Of a stretch of 38,900 nt of DNA, positions 1-8,313 are shown piece after piece. Under the pieces are notes generated by a model. That model saw only the letters and a program-made list of their open reading frames with translations, had not been told where the DNA came from and did no database searches. Within the stretch, counting starts at the first letter, position 1. Each line of letters begins with the position of its first letter. Both the position numbers and the translations under genes were made by a program. The DNA comes from Deltaproteobacteria bacterium (GTDB lineage Bacteria; Desulfobacterota; WTBG01; CAIYCZ01; CAIRTM01), in contig VGSH01000017.1 of assembly GCA_016875025.1 (NCBI GenBank), positions 1 through 38,900 on the forward strand, written 5' to 3'.

Positions 1-60
1 TATCCGGTTCTTGTTCATCGGCTCGCAGCTTCGCTCCACGCTTCCTCCCCACGCTCGGTC

Positions 61-149
61 GCCCTCACGCAGTTGCGCTTCACTTCGTTCGCTGTGATCA
101 ACTTACGGCGGGACTTACACCCGCAAGAGTGCGCCCATGCTGGGCGCAC
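61..149. repeat. Paired hairpins in gene-free left edge
   Basis: I see no gene in bases 1-150. Two short hairpins follow each other: GCGGG at 108-112 pairs with CCCGC at 120-124, and TGCGCCCA at 130-137 pairs exactly with TGGGCGCA at 141-148. The form is that of a short interspersed palindromic element downstream of a tRNA. The limits are approximate and no second full copy is visible in this window. Confidence 0.35.
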
Positions 150-963: not shown

Positions 964-2172
964 CTATAAAACCACGTGCAGACGCAGGCCGAATGTAGTG
1001 ACGGTGTTGGCCTTGCGTGCACCGGTAAGATTATGCGCCACCTGAATATCGGGGCTGATAAAGATGTGCTTGTTGAGCTTGAAATTATAGTAGGCCTCAA
1101 TCCGGCCTTCATCGGCCGTGCGGATGGCATCGGCGCGCAATTGATCCCGGAACGCCCCGCCCGGCACAGCCCGGCCGTAGGCCAGGCCGAACACATCATC
1201 GGGCCGCTGCCAGGCGCTACCCGCAACCTGGACGCCCAGGCTCCAGGCCTGCTTCGCCTCATAAATGTCGCTGCTTTGTCTGCCCCAGCGCGCAAAAGCG
1301 CACACATTGTCGGTAAGATACTGGTCAAAGCTTATGCCGAAGCCGGTGCCGGATTCATTGTTGTTTTGAGGGTTTCTGAGTTTTTCATGGTCGCTGCTGT
1401 TATGCCAGGCATATATGCGATAGGTGCCGGCGCGGCCGAGCAGTTCAGGCATAACGGCAAGCTCGCCAATTGAAAGACGGTCTTTTGATATGTTCGCAAA
1501 TTTGCGCCCATCCTCAAACACGCCCGCGCTCAACGCAATCCATGCAAGCGGGGTAACGGTGATGCGCGCGCCGTAAGCGTACTCAGGGCTGTCGATGGCA
1601 AGGCTGTTGACGAACTGGCTTGACAGGAACTGGCCGCGCTCATTATTGGCGACCTCGTTGGTGTCAAAATACGCGAACGGATCGAGCCGGCCCAGCGTGA
1701 TCACCAGGCGCTCATCAAACAGCGCCTGCTCGATCCAGAACTCTGCAACCTTTTCATCAAAGTCTTTGACATTGTCATTGACTCCCGTCAGGCCGCCGGC
1801 CTGCCGGGAGAGCCCGGTTCCGTCGGCCGCCTCAACGCGCGCCAGTGCGGATGCGCCCTGCCACAGCCGCGCTTCAAGTTTAAGGTCGGTGAGAACCTGC
1901 AGCTTTTCCCTGTCGTGGCGGGTGGGATAGCCGGGAACGCGTTTCCAGTTGTGATTATTATTAACTGAACCCTGCAAAACGGTTACGGCCTCAAGGCCGA
2001 ATGTAAACCTCTCAAAGAAAACATAGCCGGTTTCTTCTTCCTGCGCCCGGATGTCGTCCACTCCGGCGCACCATGCCGCCTGCGCTGAGGCTGCAACGCT
2101 TGCCATGCACATACACAGCGCCGCAATCAGCCGGACAGTGCGGTTTTTCCCTCGTGTATTTTTTAATTCCAT
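964..2172 (-). CDS. OprB-like outer-membrane porin
   Basis: The 402-residue product starts with a basic stretch and a hydrophobic segment (about residues 13-35), a Sec signal peptide, so the mature protein is exported. The remainder alternates short aromatic-rich beta strands and ends in LRLHVVL, compatible with an outer-membrane barrel. FAYFDTNEVANNERGQF and the segment around FARWGRQSSDIYEAKQAW recall the carbohydrate-selective porin OprB/alginate-porin families. It lies 31 bases downstream of the NikMN-type permease on the same strand and probably shares its transcript. From this context I infer that it may admit nickel or cobalt complexes rather than sugars. The substrate is not shown by the sequence. 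Confidence is high for a porin and moderate for OprB. Confidence 0.75.
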   Translation of the reverse strand: MELKNTRGKNRTVRLIAALCMCMASVAASAQAAWCAGVDDIRAQEEETGYVFFERFTFGLEAVTVLQGSVNNNHNWKRVPGYPTRHDREKLQVLTDLKLEARLWQGASALARVEAADGTGLSRQAGGLTGVNDNVKDFDEKVAEFWIEQALFDERLVITLGRLDPFAYFDTNEVANNERGQFLSSQFVNSLAIDSPEYAYGARITVTPLAWIALSAGVFEDGRKFANISKDRLSIGELAVMPELLGRAGTYRIYAWHNSSDHEKLRNPQNNNESGTGFGISFDQYLTDNVCAFARWGRQSSDIYEAKQAWSLGVQVAGSAWQRPDDVFGLAYGRAVPGGAFRDQLRADAIRTADEGRIEAYYNFKLNKHIFISPDIQVAHNLTGARKANTVTTFGLRLHVVL

Positions 2173-3121: not shown

Positions 3122-3148
3122 TTGCTACGATAATTACGTTTGTGCTAC
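3122..3148 (-). promoter_or_regulatory. Second NikR-like site, degenerate, next to the permease RBS
   Basis: TTGCTAC, 13 bases, then GTGCTAC. It carries the 13-base segment GCTACGATAATTA (3124-3136), which also occurs in opposite orientation in the better site at 3275-3287. It touches the ribosome site of the nikMN-type gene. The right half is not a proper inverted half-site, so this call is weaker. Confidence 0.35.
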
Positions 3149-3261: not shown

Positions 3262-3288
3262 TTGTTACGAATTTAATTATCGTAGCAC
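3262..3288 (-). promoter_or_regulatory. NikR-box-like operator
   Basis: TTGTTAC, 13 bases, then GTAGCAC. The NikR box described for Desulfovibrio and Geobacter relatives is GTGTTAC-N13/14-GTAACAC, so each half differs at one position and the spacing agrees. It lies about 155 bases upstream of the nikMN-type start in AT-rich DNA with -10-like hexamers. Nickel repression is inferred. Confidence 0.5.
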
Positions 3289-3423: not shown

Positions 3424-3567
3424 TCAGGTTCCTTTCGAAGGCACAGTATATGCGGTTTTGAGACAAGTGCAGCCGCAGCATTTCCCGCTGCATCCACCTT
3501 GTTTGCCGGTCATGGTACGGCAGAACGATCTCCCCGCGATAAAAGCCACGACAGCAACGATTTTCAC
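3424..3567 (-). CDS. Small Cys-rich membrane protein, FeoB-associated-like (47 aa)
   Basis: A 47-codon frame starts at GTG 3567 (MKIVAVVAFI...). An in-frame TGA about 45 bases upstream and the TGA at 3424 bound it. Residues 2-13 are one short hydrophobic segment. They are followed by basic residues and a Cys cluster, CSGKCCGCTC (Cys26, 30, 31, 33, 35). This N-terminal anchor plus Cys-rich tail is the plan of the FeoB-associated Cys-rich membrane proteins. It lies 86 bases downstream of another Cys/His-rich small gene, and both follow a DtxR-like box. Its likely role is binding iron at the inner membrane next to FeoB. The ribosome site is weak, so the exact start is uncertain; ATG at residue 19 is an alternative. 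Confidence 0.5.
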   Translation of the reverse strand: MKIVAVVAFIAGRSFCRTMTGKQGGCSGKCCGCTCLKTAYTVPSKGT

Positions 3568-3653
3568 GACAACGCGTGCGGGGCCTGTCCCGTTGTTGCC
3601 TCATCCGGAGATTTTAAACAGCCTGCGAAAAAAGATTCGTTGCCGAATGCCTG

Positions 3654-3845
3654 TCAGATGTGGGCCGGGTCCAGGTACGTCGCCGCGCGCTCAATCAGGC
3701 TGAGTGCCAGCAGGCGTTCGCGTTCCCTGCGCTTGCAGGCGCAGTGTGCGCCGCAGGTGCCGCCGCATCCGCAGGTATGTCCGCATGAGTGGCCGGCGTG
3801 CTGCGCGTGTTCATTCGTGCTGTTTGCTTTCAATACGTTTTGCAT
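3654..3845 (-). CDS. Small Cys/His-rich putative metal-binding protein (63 aa)
   Basis: The product has a short polar N-terminus, a dense metal-ligand block at residues 13-38 (HAQHAGHSCGHTCGCGG, then TCGAHCACKRR: six Cys and five His), and a C-terminal helix (RRERERLLALSLIERAATYL). There is no membrane segment or signal peptide, so a cytosolic location is expected. An AAGGA lies about nine bases before the ATG. The gene is the first after a -10-like TATAAT overlapped by a DtxR/IdeR-like box (3962-3975). The feo genes end just upstream on the same strand. I do not recognise a named family. An iron- or other metal-binding accessory of the Feo system is my inference. Confidence 0.6.
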   Translation of the reverse strand: MQNVLKANSTNEHAQHAGHSCGHTCGCGGTCGAHCACKRRERERLLALSLIERAATYLDPAHI

Positions 3846-3961
3846 GATGCATCCTTTCCTTCCCTTGGGTTGTGTGGTCTTCGGCCGCAGGCTTCTGCCT
3901 TGCTGCCGGAGCGACTGCGTGATACAACGTCAGACTTGCCTCTCAATTACTATCAACATGG

Positions 3962-3986
3962 TTAGGTTGGCCTAACTTTTATTATA
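3962..3986 (-). promoter_or_regulatory. DtxR/IdeR-like box abutting a -10 hexamer
   Basis: GTTAGGTTGGCCTAAC (3961-3976) holds TTAG-N6-CTAA and closely matches the core of the IdeR/DtxR consensus TTAGGTTAGCCTAACCTAA. On the minus strand a TATAAT (3981-3986) lies just before it, so a bound regulator would cover the transcription start of the two small Cys-rich genes. No good -35 is visible. Confidence 0.6.
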
Positions 3987-4108
3987 AAAAAATATTTTCA
4001 TTGTTTATCGTGCTCACCTCGGACAGTGAACGAAAAAACCCGTCGCTTTCCCACCTGCCTTCATAAACCCGCCACTGCATGAGTACATAAAACTTTCGTG
4101 TTGTGCTG

Positions 4109-4294
4109 TCAGGCCGTCATTGCCGGCGGATCTTTTTTCTTGCCTTCCGCAGTACCGCACTGCGCGCGCACGGCACCAGGGCTGCAGGATCTGCACGCGC
4201 AGCCGCAGCCGCTTACAGGCCCCCGTTTCATGAAGCGGCGCACAAGCAGGGCCACGGCAGCAAAAACAATGCACAGTACAATGAGCGTTTCCAT
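4109..4294 (-). CDS. FeoB-associated Cys-rich membrane protein
   Basis: The 61-residue product has one membrane helix at residues 3-18 (LIVLCIVFAAVALLVRRF). A cytosolic tail follows with Cys at 30, 32, 34, 37 and 46 (CGCACRSC) and a Lys-rich end. This is the plan of the FeoB_associated family, small proteins encoded after feoB and thought to serve the FeoB pore. The ATG shares its A with the TGA of feoB (TGATG), which implies translational coupling and fixes the start. A longer upstream frame exists but lies inside feoB. Confidence 0.8.
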   Translation of the reverse strand: METLIVLCIVFAAVALLVRRFMKRGPVSGCGCACRSCSPGAVRAQCGTAEGKKKDPPAMTA

Positions 4295-6504
4295 CAGATA
4301 AACAGCTTTCCGACCTGGTAAATCGCCACTGACATGGCAAATGCCAGCCCCGTGTTGAACACTATTGAAAAGGCTCCCCATTTCCAGGAACCGGCCTCGC
4401 GCGCGATGCACACCACGGTCACAAAGCAGGGCGCATAAAACATGACGAACACCAGCAGGCTGACGGCTACCAGCGGGTTCCAGCCGGGAGATGAGGCCAG
4501 TGTTTCAGGGAGCGAGCCGGTTTCCTCGGGAGCGATCTCGCCCAGCGAGTAGGCTGTGCCAAGCGTGGACACGATGACTTCTTTGGCCGCAAAGCCCCCG
4601 ACGAGAGCGATATTGGTGCGCCAGTCAAAGCCGGCCAAACGGCTTATGCCTTCAAGCGAGGTGCCGATTCGGCCGGCAATGGAGTTGCGCAGCGCTGCTT
4701 CAGATTCTTTGCGGTCGACTGCGTCAAGTGCCTGCCTGAGCTGCAGCGCGGATTCGCTCAGTTCAGCGTCCTCTTCGGCGCTGTCGAGCTCCTGCGCGGC
4801 CGCGGGCGCGGAAATCAGTTCTTCGGTGCGCAGCTTTTCATAGGTGTGCAGCGATTGAGCGGGCAGCTGCGGAAAGGTCATCATGGCCCAGACCACGATC
4901 GAGATTGCCAGAATCACGGTGCCGGCCTTCCTGATGTATTGCCAGGTACGCTCCCAGGTGTGGATCAGCAGGCCCTTGACCGTGGGCAGACGATAGGGCG
5001 GCAGTTCCATGACAAACGGGGTTGATGCTCCGGCGATGACGGTTGAGCGCAGCAGCCGGGCTGACAGCAGCGCGACCGCCCAGGCCAGCAGCGTCAGCAA
5101 AAACATGACCAGCGCTTCGTGGCTGGCAAAAAACGCGGCGATCATCAAGGCCATGACCGGCAGCTTGGCACCGCAGTTCATGAACGGCGCGGTCAGCAGG
5201 GTTGCCAGTCGTTCGCGCGGCGAGCGCAGGGTGCGCGCGGCCATGACCCCCGGCACAGCGCAACCGCCGGCAATGCCGCCGGAAATGATGTAGGCCATCA
5301 CCGAGCTGCCGTGCAGCCCGAACATCCTGAATACGCGGTCGAGCATAAAGGCGACCCGGGCCAGATAGCCCGTGTCTTCGAGAATGGCGATACCGAAGAA
5401 CATGAACATGATAAGCGGAACAAACCCCAGAACACCGCCGGCGCCGTCGATGATGCCTGATATGATCAGTGATTTAAGCAGTCCGTCGGGCAGCGCACGG
5501 TCGGCCAGGTCCCCCAGATATCCGAACATGCTTTCACACCAGCCGACCGGCACCTCGCTGTAGGTAAACGTGAACTTGTACAGACCCAGCAGGATAAGCA
5601 GCATAATGAGCGGACCCACGAGCCGGTTGGTGAGCACCGCATCCAACGTATCTGAAAGATACATGCGGTCTTTGGTTGCTTGGCGCTGCACAACGCCTTT
5701 CATCATCGCGTGTATATAGCCGTAGCGGTGGTCGGCGATCAGGGCCTCAGGGTAGGTGTTCAGTGTCGCGCTGATATGGGCTGCCGTGCGCAGGGCGATG
5801 GCTTCAAGCTGACCGGAGATGTCCGCTGCAGCGATGCGCCCTTTCTCAAGGATCTGGGCGTCTTTCTCAAGGTATTTCAGGGCGGTCCAGCGTGCCGGAT
5901 ACGTTTCGGTCAGGAAGGCCCCGTGAATGATGATCTCCTCCATGGCAGCCAGGGCGCTGTCCAGGTCCTCGCCGTAGGATATTTCAAAGGTGCGCGGCCT
6001 GATTCCCGCGCGGGCTGCCTCAATGGCGGTCTCGATGAGCTGTGTTCTACCCTTGCCGCTGCGGGCCACTATCGGCACGACCGGCACGCCCAGAAGTTCG
6101 GCCAGCCGGTCCGCATCAATGCGCAGGCCGCGGCTTTCAGCAACATCCATCATATTGAGCGCAATCATGATCGGTATGCCGAGTTCCAGCAGCTGCAGGG
6201 CAAGATAGAGATTGCGCTCGAGGTTGGAAGCATCCACGATGTCAATGGTCAGCGCGGGGCGATCCTGCACGAGAAAATCGCGGGCCACAACCTCTTCCAG
6301 AGAATAGGCGGTCAGGGAATAGGTGCCGGGCAGGTCAACCACGCGCAGGCGCTCGCCGTTATGCTCACACATGCCATGCTTTTCCTCCACGGTCACGCCG
6401 GGGTAATTGCCCACGTGCTGGCGCGCGCCGGTCAGGCTGTTGAACAGGGTTGTCTTGCCCGTGTTGGGGTTGCCTGCAAGGGCAACGGTCAGGCCGGTAT
6501 CCAT
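4294..6504 (-). CDS. feoB: Ferrous iron transport protein FeoB
   Basis: FeoB is the GTPase-coupled inner-membrane permease for Fe(II). The N-terminal G domain shows GNPNTGKTT (residues 11-19), DLPGTYSL (G3) and NMMD (G4). A helical linker follows, then the polytopic C-terminal part with two Gate regions. The conserved Cys-containing motifs PFMNCGAKLPV and FYAPCFVTVVC line the proposed pore. At 736 residues it is a typical length. The start is well placed: GAGGAG of the ribosome site overlaps the feoA stop codon. Two feoA genes precede it and a Cys-rich partner follows with a one-base overlap. DtxR-like boxes upstream indicate iron- or manganese-responsive control. Confidence 0.97.
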   Translation of the reverse strand: MDTGLTVALAGNPNTGKTTLFNSLTGARQHVGNYPGVTVEEKHGMCEHNGERLRVVDLPGTYSLTAYSLEEVVARDFLVQDRPALTIDIVDASNLERNLYLALQLLELGIPIMIALNMMDVAESRGLRIDADRLAELLGVPVVPIVARSGKGRTQLIETAIEAARAGIRPRTFEISYGEDLDSALAAMEEIIIHGAFLTETYPARWTALKYLEKDAQILEKGRIAAADISGQLEAIALRTAAHISATLNTYPEALIADHRYGYIHAMMKGVVQRQATKDRMYLSDTLDAVLTNRLVGPLIMLLILLGLYKFTFTYSEVPVGWCESMFGYLGDLADRALPDGLLKSLIISGIIDGAGGVLGFVPLIMFMFFGIAILEDTGYLARVAFMLDRVFRMFGLHGSSVMAYIISGGIAGGCAVPGVMAARTLRSPRERLATLLTAPFMNCGAKLPVMALMIAAFFASHEALVMFLLTLLAWAVALLSARLLRSTVIAGASTPFVMELPPYRLPTVKGLLIHTWERTWQYIRKAGTVILAISIVVWAMMTFPQLPAQSLHTYEKLRTEELISAPAAAQELDSAEEDAELSESALQLRQALDAVDRKESEAALRNSIAGRIGTSLEGISRLAGFDWRTNIALVGGFAAKEVIVSTLGTAYSLGEIAPEETGSLPETLASSPGWNPLVAVSLLVFVMFYAPCFVTVVCIAREAGSWKWGAFSIVFNTGLAFAMSVAIYQVGKLFI

Positions 6505-6510
6505 GCGTAT

Positions 6511-6753
6511 TTACTCCTCATCAGTTTCCACGGTTATGTAATCAGCTTCATTGTTGCGCAGCATCAGGGTGAAATCCTGCAGGCGCAGCGCAACGGGATC
6601 TTTCAGGGGCGCTCTTCGCACAACCGTAAGCACGGCCCCCGGCACAAGCCCCATATCGCGGATGCGCCGACCCATCTCGGCTTGCGCTCCGATCGAAGCA
6701 ATGGTGCCGCTTTGGCCTAATTTCATCTGTCGAAGGCAAAGAGTCCTTTTCAT
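6511..6753 (-). CDS. feoA: FeoA domain protein (proximal to feoB)
   Basis: This is an 80-residue SH3-like FeoA protein, the cytosolic partner of FeoB. The family pattern is clear: LRQMKLGQSGTIASIG, then RRIRDMGLVPGAVLTVVRRAPLKDP, then LMLRNNEADYITVE. It ends in acidic residues whose GAGGAG codons double as the feoB ribosome site, six bases before feoB. A TTAG-N6-CTAA site sits in the 73-base gap upstream, so it may have its own regulated promoter. Confidence 0.93.
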   Translation of the reverse strand: MKRTLCLRQMKLGQSGTIASIGAQAEMGRRIRDMGLVPGAVLTVVRRAPLKDPVALRLQDFTLMLRNNEADYITVETDEE

Positions 6754-6794
6754 ACGTTTTTAAACCTCACGTTTTTTAATGAACATTAACTATA

Positions 6795-6808
6795 TTAGTT
6801 ATGGCTAA
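6795..6808 (-). promoter_or_regulatory. Second DtxR-like box, between the two feoA genes
   Basis: TTAG-TTATGG-CTAA lies in the AT-rich gap between the two feoA genes. It keeps the TTAG-N6-CTAA frame of the boxes at 3962 and 7125 but has a less symmetric centre. It could control an internal promoter for feoA-feoB. Confidence 0.45.
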
Positions 6809-6826
6809 TTAAAAAGCTAAAAAAAA

Positions 6827-7072
6827 TCACCTTACCAGTATTTTTTTTGCCATTCCCCGGCCGAGCGTGATCCGGCTGTCTCCCAGGCCGACAAGCAGCG
6901 GCCCCTGCCCGTGGTTCAGAATAATATTGACCTCAGCCTCTTTAACAAATCCCATGGCCAGAAGCCGGCCCTGTAAATTGTTGCCTGCCTGGACACCCGC
7001 TATGCGCACCCTGCGGCCGGGCGCAATGCTTGATAGATCCGTGCAGGCAATGTGAAGCGGTGTTTGTTTCAT
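6827..7072 (-). CDS. feoA: Second FeoA domain protein
   Basis: This 81-residue FeoA-fold protein shows APGRRVRIAGVQAGNNLQGRLLAMGFVKEAEVNII, then a C-terminal strand pair with LVGLGDSRITLGRGMAKKILV. It is only distantly similar to the other FeoA and lacks its acidic tail. Paired feoA genes before feoB are common in anaerobic and deltaproteobacterial feo operons. It is the first gene after the DtxR-like box at 7125-7138. It may fill the FeoC-like or a second FeoA position in the complex. Confidence 0.9.
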   Translation of the reverse strand: MKQTPLHIACTDLSSIAPGRRVRIAGVQAGNNLQGRLLAMGFVKEAEVNIILNHGQGPLLVGLGDSRITLGRGMAKKILVR

Positions 7073-7124
7073 AGTGTATGATATGCAAGCTTTCTTGTGA
7101 TGTAGTTATATTCAAGAAACAATA

Positions 7125-7138
7125 TTAGATTAACCTAA
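7125..7138 (-). promoter_or_regulatory. DtxR/IdeR-like box upstream of the feo operon
   Basis: TTAG-ATTAAC-CTAA, with flanks extending the match to the IdeR/DtxR consensus (TTAGATTAACCTAATTTAA, about 15 of 19 positions). On the minus strand TATAAC about 18 bases downstream is a possible -10, so the box would overlap the -35 region. The gap 7073-7446 otherwise holds only the repeat cluster. Confidence 0.65.
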
Positions 7139-7289
7139 TTTAATGACCCTGGCAAGTCTTTTTTTTATTTAATAGAAAAATTTTTGCAAACCGCGGGGTT
7201 GCAGCATACAGGCGGTGTGCGGACCAATACCGGCCAGGCATGTGCGGTCGGCGATCATCGATAAAGAGAGCCCGGAATGTGCCGGTTAT

Positions 7290-7417
7290 CCGTTCATGGT
7301 GAGTTCGCTTTTCCGTTCGTGGTGAACTCGCTTCTCCGTTCGTGGTGAGCCTGTCGAACCATGAACGGATTTATCTGCGCCCCGTTCTACCCTTCGACAG
7401 GCTCAGGGCGAACGGAC
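7290..7417. repeat. Cluster of CCGTTC(A/G)TGGTGA repeats and hairpins
   Basis: Three copies of a roughly 23-base unit starting CCGTTC(A/G)TGGTGA follow in tandem from 7290. The last copy forms a hairpin with ACCATGAACGG (7336-7368). A variant hairpin arm with TTCGACAGGCTCAGGGCGAACGG follows. The same core (TCGACAGGCTC between CCGTTC and GAACGG arms) occurs at 857-947. Confidence 0.7.
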
Positions 7418-7446
7418 GATGTTGTTAAAGTATTGCGATAGGTGCT

Positions 7447-7953
7447 TTACTGACGGGGTGTTACTTTTGTGAGGCAGTCTTTAATACAGTCTTCGCAATC
7501 AGCACCCATGGTGCCGCGCTGACAGAACGTTTTAAATTCCTGTATCCACTGCGTTCCGACGCGCGGGCATTGCTGCGTGAAATCAATAAAGCTGATCAGG
7601 CGTTCAAGGACCGCGGGCGATATGGCGTGCTCGAGTTTGCAGGCACCGTCCTGCGCCTCCTGTTCATCAAGCCCGAGAATGTCTTTGAGAAAATGATGCA
7701 GAGTGCTGTGCCGTTTGACCACATCACGTGCCAGCCGGTTTCCCTCATCCGTCAGCGTGATGATATCGTAGGGCGCGTAATTGATAAGGCTTTTTTCAGC
7801 AAGCATGCGCAATGCGCCCGTTACTGAAGGGGCCTTCACGCCCAGCTCGGCGGCAATATCCTTGGCCCGCACAGCCTGCCTTTTATTCACGATTTGATAA
7901 ATGGCCTCCAGGTAGTCTTCAAGGCTTGCGCTGAGATGGGCTGTTTCGTCCAT
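7447..7953 (-). CDS. DtxR/MntR-family metal-dependent transcriptional regulator
   Basis: The 168-residue protein has an N-terminal winged helix-turn-helix (SASLEDYLEAIYQIV, then RAKDIAAELGVKAPSVTGALRMLAEKSLI). The DtxR dimerization and metal-binding region follows (RHSTLHHFLKDILGLDEQEAQDGACKLEHAIS), where the His, Glu and Cys ligands of the family are recognisable. No SH3 domain is present. The C-terminus adds a Cys group (FCQ...DCEDCIKDC) seen in some anaerobe members. I start at ATG 7953 because the conserved protein begins there; the frame runs 33 codons further upstream without similarity. It lies beside the feo operon, whose promoters carry matching boxes, so it is the likely iron-responsive repressor. 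No box is seen before its own gene. Confidence 0.88.
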   Translation of the reverse strand: MDETAHLSASLEDYLEAIYQIVNKRQAVRAKDIAAELGVKAPSVTGALRMLAEKSLINYAPYDIITLTDEGNRLARDVVKRHSTLHHFLKDILGLDEQEAQDGACKLEHAISPAVLERLISFIDFTQQCPRVGTQWIQEFKTFCQRGTMGADCEDCIKDCLTKVTPRQ

Positions 7954-8313
7954 AATGTTCAACCGGATATAATGGATTGAAGAGATGGCATGTATATATG
8001 ATGTAACCTCTGCCGCAGTGTTAGCAATACCAAAAAATGCACGCTGCTGCAAAGACTTTTTACCCCATTAGCCGGTGCGCCCGTCGTCCAGCCGCACTAT
8101 CCTGCCCGGATGGCGAAAAAACCTATTCCTCGTCTGTGCATTGAACCCGCTGTTTTTAAATCCGCTCAACTGCATGCGGCCGGTTCGAAGCACAGCCCGC
8201 GGCCCGCGCAACGTTATGCGTTCCGGCGCTTTTTGTGACACGCCACCGGGTTGTCCCCCGTTGAGCGTTATGTTAATTTTTTTTAAAATTTGCCGTTCCG
8301 TGGGTCATGGTGA

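Follow-up and report, generated by a model that had tools for sequence, protein, structure and literature searches.

A conserved Cys-rich peptide gene and a second FeoB_associated homologue beside a deltaproteobacterial feo cluster with DtxR-type operators

Introduction

Which component takes over Fe(II) from FeoB is an unsettled question. One accessory protein of the Feo system, FeoC, is a winged-helix protein. In E. coli, FeoC carries a C-terminal Cx4Cx2Cx5C motif and its cysteines matter for Feo function (PMC8749426), which makes a Cys-based Feo accessory plausible. Proteins of the PF12669 (FeoB_associated) type have already been reported downstream of feoB, and the translation of small Cys-rich ORFs adjacent to feoB has been described as an unanswered question (PMC8749426). 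For the control of such genes in delta-proteobacteria, a dFUR box with the consensus WTGAAAATNATTTTCAW was described (PMC545781). In three Bacteroidetes, DUF2023 together with flavodoxin ranks with the most strongly induced genes under iron starvation (PMC10434189).

The locus described here was found in a window of 38,900 nucleotides, the whole stretch of DNA that was analysed (contig C17, VGSH01000017.1), in a genome of the Thermodesulfobacteriota type comprising 3.25 Mb in 254 contigs. It resembles the FeoC arrangement in that small Cys-bearing accessory proteins are encoded after feoB, and Pfam and NCBIfam searches gave no match to the FeoC profile. As with the dFUR box, operators precede feoAB, but the window operator is a DtxR-type palindrome, TTAGN6CTAA, unlike the FUR-type signal (PMC545781). 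Compared with the open-licence literature, the new elements are the family of a 63-residue protein, a second PF12669 copy within one cluster, and DtxR-type operators of two classes that are nearly confined to the cluster. Three Cys-rich ORFs, one of them for a new conserved soluble peptide, together with a nearly cluster-unique box, make up a compact set to test.

Layout of the feo cluster

On the minus strand, the genes occur in the order dtxR-feoA-feoA-feoB-PF12669, followed, under a separate operator, by two small ORFs of 63 and 47 codons (Table 1), which lie at the place given in the first-pass annotation. The gap between the PF12669 gene and the 63-codon ORF is 263 bp. Beyond the small ORFs, a gene for a CbiM-type transporter and one for an OprB-type porin lie further downstream.

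Table 1. Features of the feo cluster and its surroundings, with related sites in other loci (window positions unless a locus is named)
Feature	Position	Strand	Remarks
DtxR/MntR-family metal-dependent repressor	7447..8052	-	PF02742, PF01325
DtxR-type operator before first feoA	7125..7138	-	overlaps -10 of promoter-like TTGCCA-N17-TAATCT
feoA (first)	6827..7072	-	PF04023, 60.6 bits
DtxR-type operator, T-tract class, before second feoA	6795..6808	-	
feoA (second)	6511..6753	-	PF04023, 70.5 bits
feoB	4294..6504	-	PF02421, PF07670, PF07664, PF17910
61-aa FeoB_associated protein	4109..4294	-	PF12669, 34.6 bits
T7 tract, at exactly 10 nt from the 3962 box on its upstream side	3986..3992	-	
DtxR-type operator ahead of 63-aa and 47-aa ORFs	3962..3975	-	TTAGGTTGGCCTAA / TTAGGCCAACCTAA
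63-aa soluble Cys/His-rich protein	3654..3845	-	ATG start
47-aa ORF, second PF12669 homologue	3424..3567	-	GTG start
T7-N10-TTAGN6CTAA sites	6795, 3962; L068 2733, 16318, 19216; L069 2230, 4424, 8006; L109 1735; L074 3717		
NikR-like half-site pair GTGCTAC-N13-GTAACA or GTAGCAC-N13-GTAGCA, respectively	3123-3148 and 3263-3288	-	
OprB-type porin	964-2172	-	
Group II intron fragment	1-68	-	RF02001
Repeat TTCGACAGGCTCA	896-908, 7346-7358, 7393-7405		
Type IV pilin-like gene	L069 831-1715; L068 13995-14909		G003 and G005

The real start codon of the repressor gene is probably further in than annotated, and its product is the likely reader of the TTAGN6CTAA boxes. The protein also has an extra C-terminal tail bearing Cys, CQRGTMGADCEDCIKDCL.

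The Cys-rich protein that the first-pass annotation had placed after feoB does exist. It is a full member of PF12669, scoring above the cut-off of 27 bits, with an ATG that overlaps the feoB stop codon and a gene-like synonymous codon score of 0.08.

A new family of 63-residue Cys-rich proteins

The 63-codon ORF is a real gene. An SD-like AAGGAAAGGA lies ahead of its ATG, and its synonymous codon score of 0.14 equals the median of the window's real gene chunks and lies above the 95th percentile of spurious ORFs. Searching 58 genomes, those of relatives and of the window itself, yielded one homologue in G003 and two in G005, both metagenome-assembled genomes and the closest relatives sharing the locus. 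Together with the window protein, they form a family of four proteins of 59-68 residues from three genera of one taxonomic family, with the invariant core C-x-C-x-G-x-C-G-x2-C-A-C-K. Nine codons specify the invariant residues; six of them vary, in every case at the third base only. Conservation in relatives had been set by the first-pass annotation as the test of both small reading frames, and the 63-codon frame passes it through these synonymous changes. A chance ORF is ruled out for this frame by the homologues and by the purely synonymous drift of the core.

The distribution of the gene is narrow. At the DNA level, the core motif occurred in 3 of 297 genomes of the phylum, all from this family, and was absent from the other 294; a profile search likewise placed the protein in three of the nine genomes of its taxonomic family. 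Among 84,980 species the motif gave ten matches, three of them in G003 and G005 and seven outside the family; the latter were rejected as homologues, being unrelated frames or Gly-rich repeats and proteins. The gene is absent from most of the family and from G001, the only genome of the same genus, which has no feo locus of this type either, and it was not found in G002, where feoB-PF12669 is present.

All six Cys residues lie within one stretch of 17 residues (C21-C37). The first-pass annotation had counted six Cys and five His; the Cys count was right, and the sequence has six His. The protein matches no Pfam or NCBIfam family and, in contrast to PF12669 members, has no membrane segment and no match to the PF12669 profile in Pfam. 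It represents a new, lineage-restricted family. The first-pass annotation had counted three small Cys-rich proteins for one Feo system, possibly an undescribed iron-handling relay; the three ORFs are borne out, and of the two after the separate operator the 63-residue protein is new, being conserved without a family match. AlphaFold, run on the four sequences, gave no reliable fold (mean pLDDT 52), as would be expected of a peptide folded by metal, although this proves nothing, and a profile search against the PDB returned chance matches only, to neuraminidase. The cluster also illustrates how genes of about 60 codons may be detected from conservation and operator instead of from gene-family models.

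Neighbourhood of the gene in relatives

Three of the four copies of the 63-residue gene come after feoB and PF12669. In G005, copy a follows these genes as in the window, with DUF2023 next, whereas copy b, about 15 kb from feo, is preceded by a PAS gene and DUF2325 and followed by DUF2023. The order in G003 is feoB, methyltransferase, PF12669, DUF2325, Cys-rich gene and DUF2023. DUF2023 directly follows each of the three copies that the relatives carry, and none was found in the window genome. This adjacency and the iron-type box are reminiscent of the DUF2023-flavodoxin operon of Bacteroidetes, for which the available part of the report mentions no Cys-rich peptide (PMC10434189); the window genome differs from that operon in having no DUF2023.

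A TTAGN6CTAA box heads the units of all four copies in the three genomes. It directly precedes the Cys-rich gene in the window genome (G000) and in G005 copy a, and stands further upstream in the other two, with DUF2325 in between in G003 and PAS-DUF2325 in G005 copy b.

In both G003 and G005, a type IV pilin-like gene occurs after the feo/DUF2023 block; no such gene is next to feo within the window.

DtxR-type operators of two classes

A DtxR-like, iron-type box before the small ORFs had been proposed from the first reading of the sequence, and the genome-wide counts agree with it. TTAGN6CTAA occurs only four times in the whole 3.25-Mb genome, and three of these sites are in the feo cluster, one ahead of each feoA and one ahead of the 63-codon gene; for the reversed control pattern the count is 35. 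None of 2000 dinucleotide shuffles of positions 3656-8052 yielded three boxes; the leader of the 63-codon gene, taken by itself, gave one box in 0.4% of shuffles. The box is also conserved in G003, G005, and G002. It is a strong, cluster-specific signal, far above chance. Two features of a DtxR-controlled feo operon are found here, namely a DtxR-family gene in the cluster and palindromes before its units that are enriched over the genome.

The promoter proposed along with the box fared less well. A TATAAT (3986-3981, minus strand) had been described as overlapped by the box, but the two are separated by 5 nt. The first base of the hexamer is the final T of the T7 tract, and the hexamer lies mostly inside the 10-nt spacer, which is variable; it is not conserved at homologous sites, and was therefore rejected as a conserved -10. 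Other -10 positions at the 3' end of the 3962 box are possible but weak, as are the promoter hexamers there.

The box sites fall into two classes. At the sites of dtxR and the first feoA, the box contains a -10-like hexamer, and a TTGCCA/TTGACA-like hexamer precedes the latter at a distance of 17 nt. At the internal sites (second feoA, Cys-rich unit, and DUF2325 unit), the place of the -35 is taken by a T7 tract at exactly 10 nt from the box. The window genome has two copies of the composite T7-N10-box, and both are in the feo cluster. All three composites of G003 and three of the four of G005 are on the feo contig, one is on the feoA contig of G002, and another was recognized by eye between feoA and feoB of G015, from another family.

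The 47-codon ORF as a PF12669 homologue

The second small ORF is of no new kind. It matches PF12669 at 20.6 bits (E 5.5e-4), below the curated cut-off, and when all six frames of the genome were searched with this profile it came second to the 61-residue protein, the next match outside the window reaching 13.9 bits. A PF12669 protein encoded behind feoB in G011, a genome of another family, is itself above the cut-off and shares 56% identity with the 47-residue sequence (E 1.2e-7); the local score of 110 compares with no more than 62 among 500 shuffles, and similarity is visible in the DNA. Both proteins have GRSF-x-RTMTGK (GRSFCRTMTGK in the window, GRSFYRTMTGK in G011) followed by the Cys cluster, and the 47-residue sequence is nearer to the G011 protein than to the 61-residue paralogue of its own cluster. 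The profile and the G011 homology identify it as a second FeoB_associated homologue, thus ruling out a new family and giving no support to the view of this ORF as something undescribed. A match of G004 to the G011 protein was taken as chance, since a stop interrupts its frame and a different reading frame overlaps it.

The five clustered Cys residues attributed to this protein are present, within a total of six. Its description as membrane-anchored is doubtful, since the hydrophobic stretch has only about 11 residues from the only available start codon. In the conservation test the 47-codon frame failed, no other genome of the family having it at this position.

Proposed role and alternatives

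We give about an even chance to the proposal that the DtxR-controlled feo cluster ends in an accessory unit, consisting of a DtxR-repressed gene for a metal-binding 63-residue peptide and a shortened PF12669 paralogue. With metal plentiful, the neighbouring DtxR-family repressor would bind TTAGN6CTAA and hold this unit down along with feoA and feoB; low iron, the presumed signal, would release it and allow its expression. The 63-residue peptide would then act in the cytosol as a soluble thiolate/imidazole metal binder through its Cys/His cluster, most likely for Fe(II), or for an Fe-S or Zn centre, and might buffer or hand on the metal that FeoB lets in. Beside it, a membrane-bound PF12669 peptide would be located at FeoB, and the 47-codon ORF would be a second PF12669 paralogue with a shortened 5' end, possibly decaying. 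In its favour are the invariant core with its synonymous drift and gene-like codon use, the box at the head of the unit of every copy, the place of three copies after feoB and PF12669, DUF2023 as the next gene in the relatives, and the near confinement of the box to a cluster that includes dtxR. Against this proposal are the absence of the 63-residue gene from most of the family and from the same-genus genome (itself devoid of such a feo locus), the feoB-PF12669 of G002 with no such gene nearby, the copy of G005 remote from feo, the failure of AlphaFold to give a fold, the readiness of C-x-C-rich peptides to bind Zn or Cu, and the weak promoter hexamers at the 3962 box. A more elaborate version, in which the soluble carrier and one or two membrane-anchored FeoB_associated peptides form a thiol relay that carries Fe(II) away from FeoB to its users in the cytosol, under two-class DtxR operators (a true -35 at dtxR/feoA, T7-N10 internally), appears quite improbable.

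The 63-residue protein could instead be a metallothionein-like sink, and no iron carrier, for Zn, Cu or other thiophilic metals that enter by leakage once Feo is derepressed. Zn or Cu is bound by C-x-C-rich peptides at least as readily as Fe. From its sequence and general knowledge, the C-x-C pairs, Gly spacing, and flanking His would fit thiolate clusters of the metallothionein type, and the protein is short, C-x-C rich, and contains His like SmtA/BmtA-type metallothioneins (PF02069); besides, the reported FeoB partner is PF12669 and not this protein (PMC8749426). However, it matches no Pfam metallothionein model, has only six Cys, all in the one stretch, and stands under an iron-type box with neighbours that suggest iron starvation; we regard a metal sink as rather unlikely. 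Another possibility is that the protein serves as partner of a DUF2325/DUF2023 iron-starvation module, perhaps in Fe-S or redox sensing, its adjacency to feo reflecting co-regulation only. The constant DUF2023 downstream in the relatives speaks for it, as does DUF2325, which twice precedes the gene, once in the copy distant from feoB; yet in the window genome, which is devoid of DUF2023, the gene remains with feo, and we consider this partnership unlikely.

It is hardly credible that the two small ORFs are nothing but chance frames within the leader of the cbiM-type gene that lies downstream. The GC-rich DNA here is full of short ORFs, but both frames have homologous proteins elsewhere, and the drift of the 63-residue core is synonymous throughout; for the 47-codon frame this refutes a chance origin and leaves its expression aside. 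This ORF may be either poorly translated or a relic, with a slight lean to the latter, and that it is an inactive, 5'-truncated PF12669 copy, translated to no purpose, is a reading we favour by a little and which is compatible with the accessory unit proposed above. The G011 gene begins with AGGAGGTTGTC-ATG-CTG-GAG, whereas the window copy has neither this ATG nor the AGGAGG, is about six helix residues short, and has a single available GTG with no SD ahead; in addition to scoring below the cut-off, it thus differs from PF12669 members in its start and part of its helix, and in its place in a separate unit after the 63-residue gene. Its synonymous codon score of -0.13 equals the spurious-ORF median and is lower than the 5th percentile of the real gene chunks, whereas the 63- and 61-residue genes score gene-like, and neither G003 nor G005 has a counterpart at this place. 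The missing ATG and ribosome site, the shortened helix, and the non-coding-like codon use would fit a decaying copy. On the other hand, the remaining frame is free of stops and frameshifts and has kept both GRSF-x-RTMTGK and the Cys cluster intact, the identity to the G011 protein is high for two clusters whose FeoB proteins are only 45% identical, and codon scores near zero were obtained for the FeoA genes, too.

Other elements around the cluster

Two pairs of NikR-like half-sites precede the CbiM/PDGLE gene and resemble the delta-proteobacterial NikR signal (PMC545781); this transporter may serve nickel. The OprB-type porin gene is also close to feo. At the beginning of the window, a group II intron fragment is broken off by the contig end. 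The repeat TTCGACAGGCTCA was observed three times against 0.03 expected by chance, and two of its copies lie between dtxR and feoA as an inverted pair.
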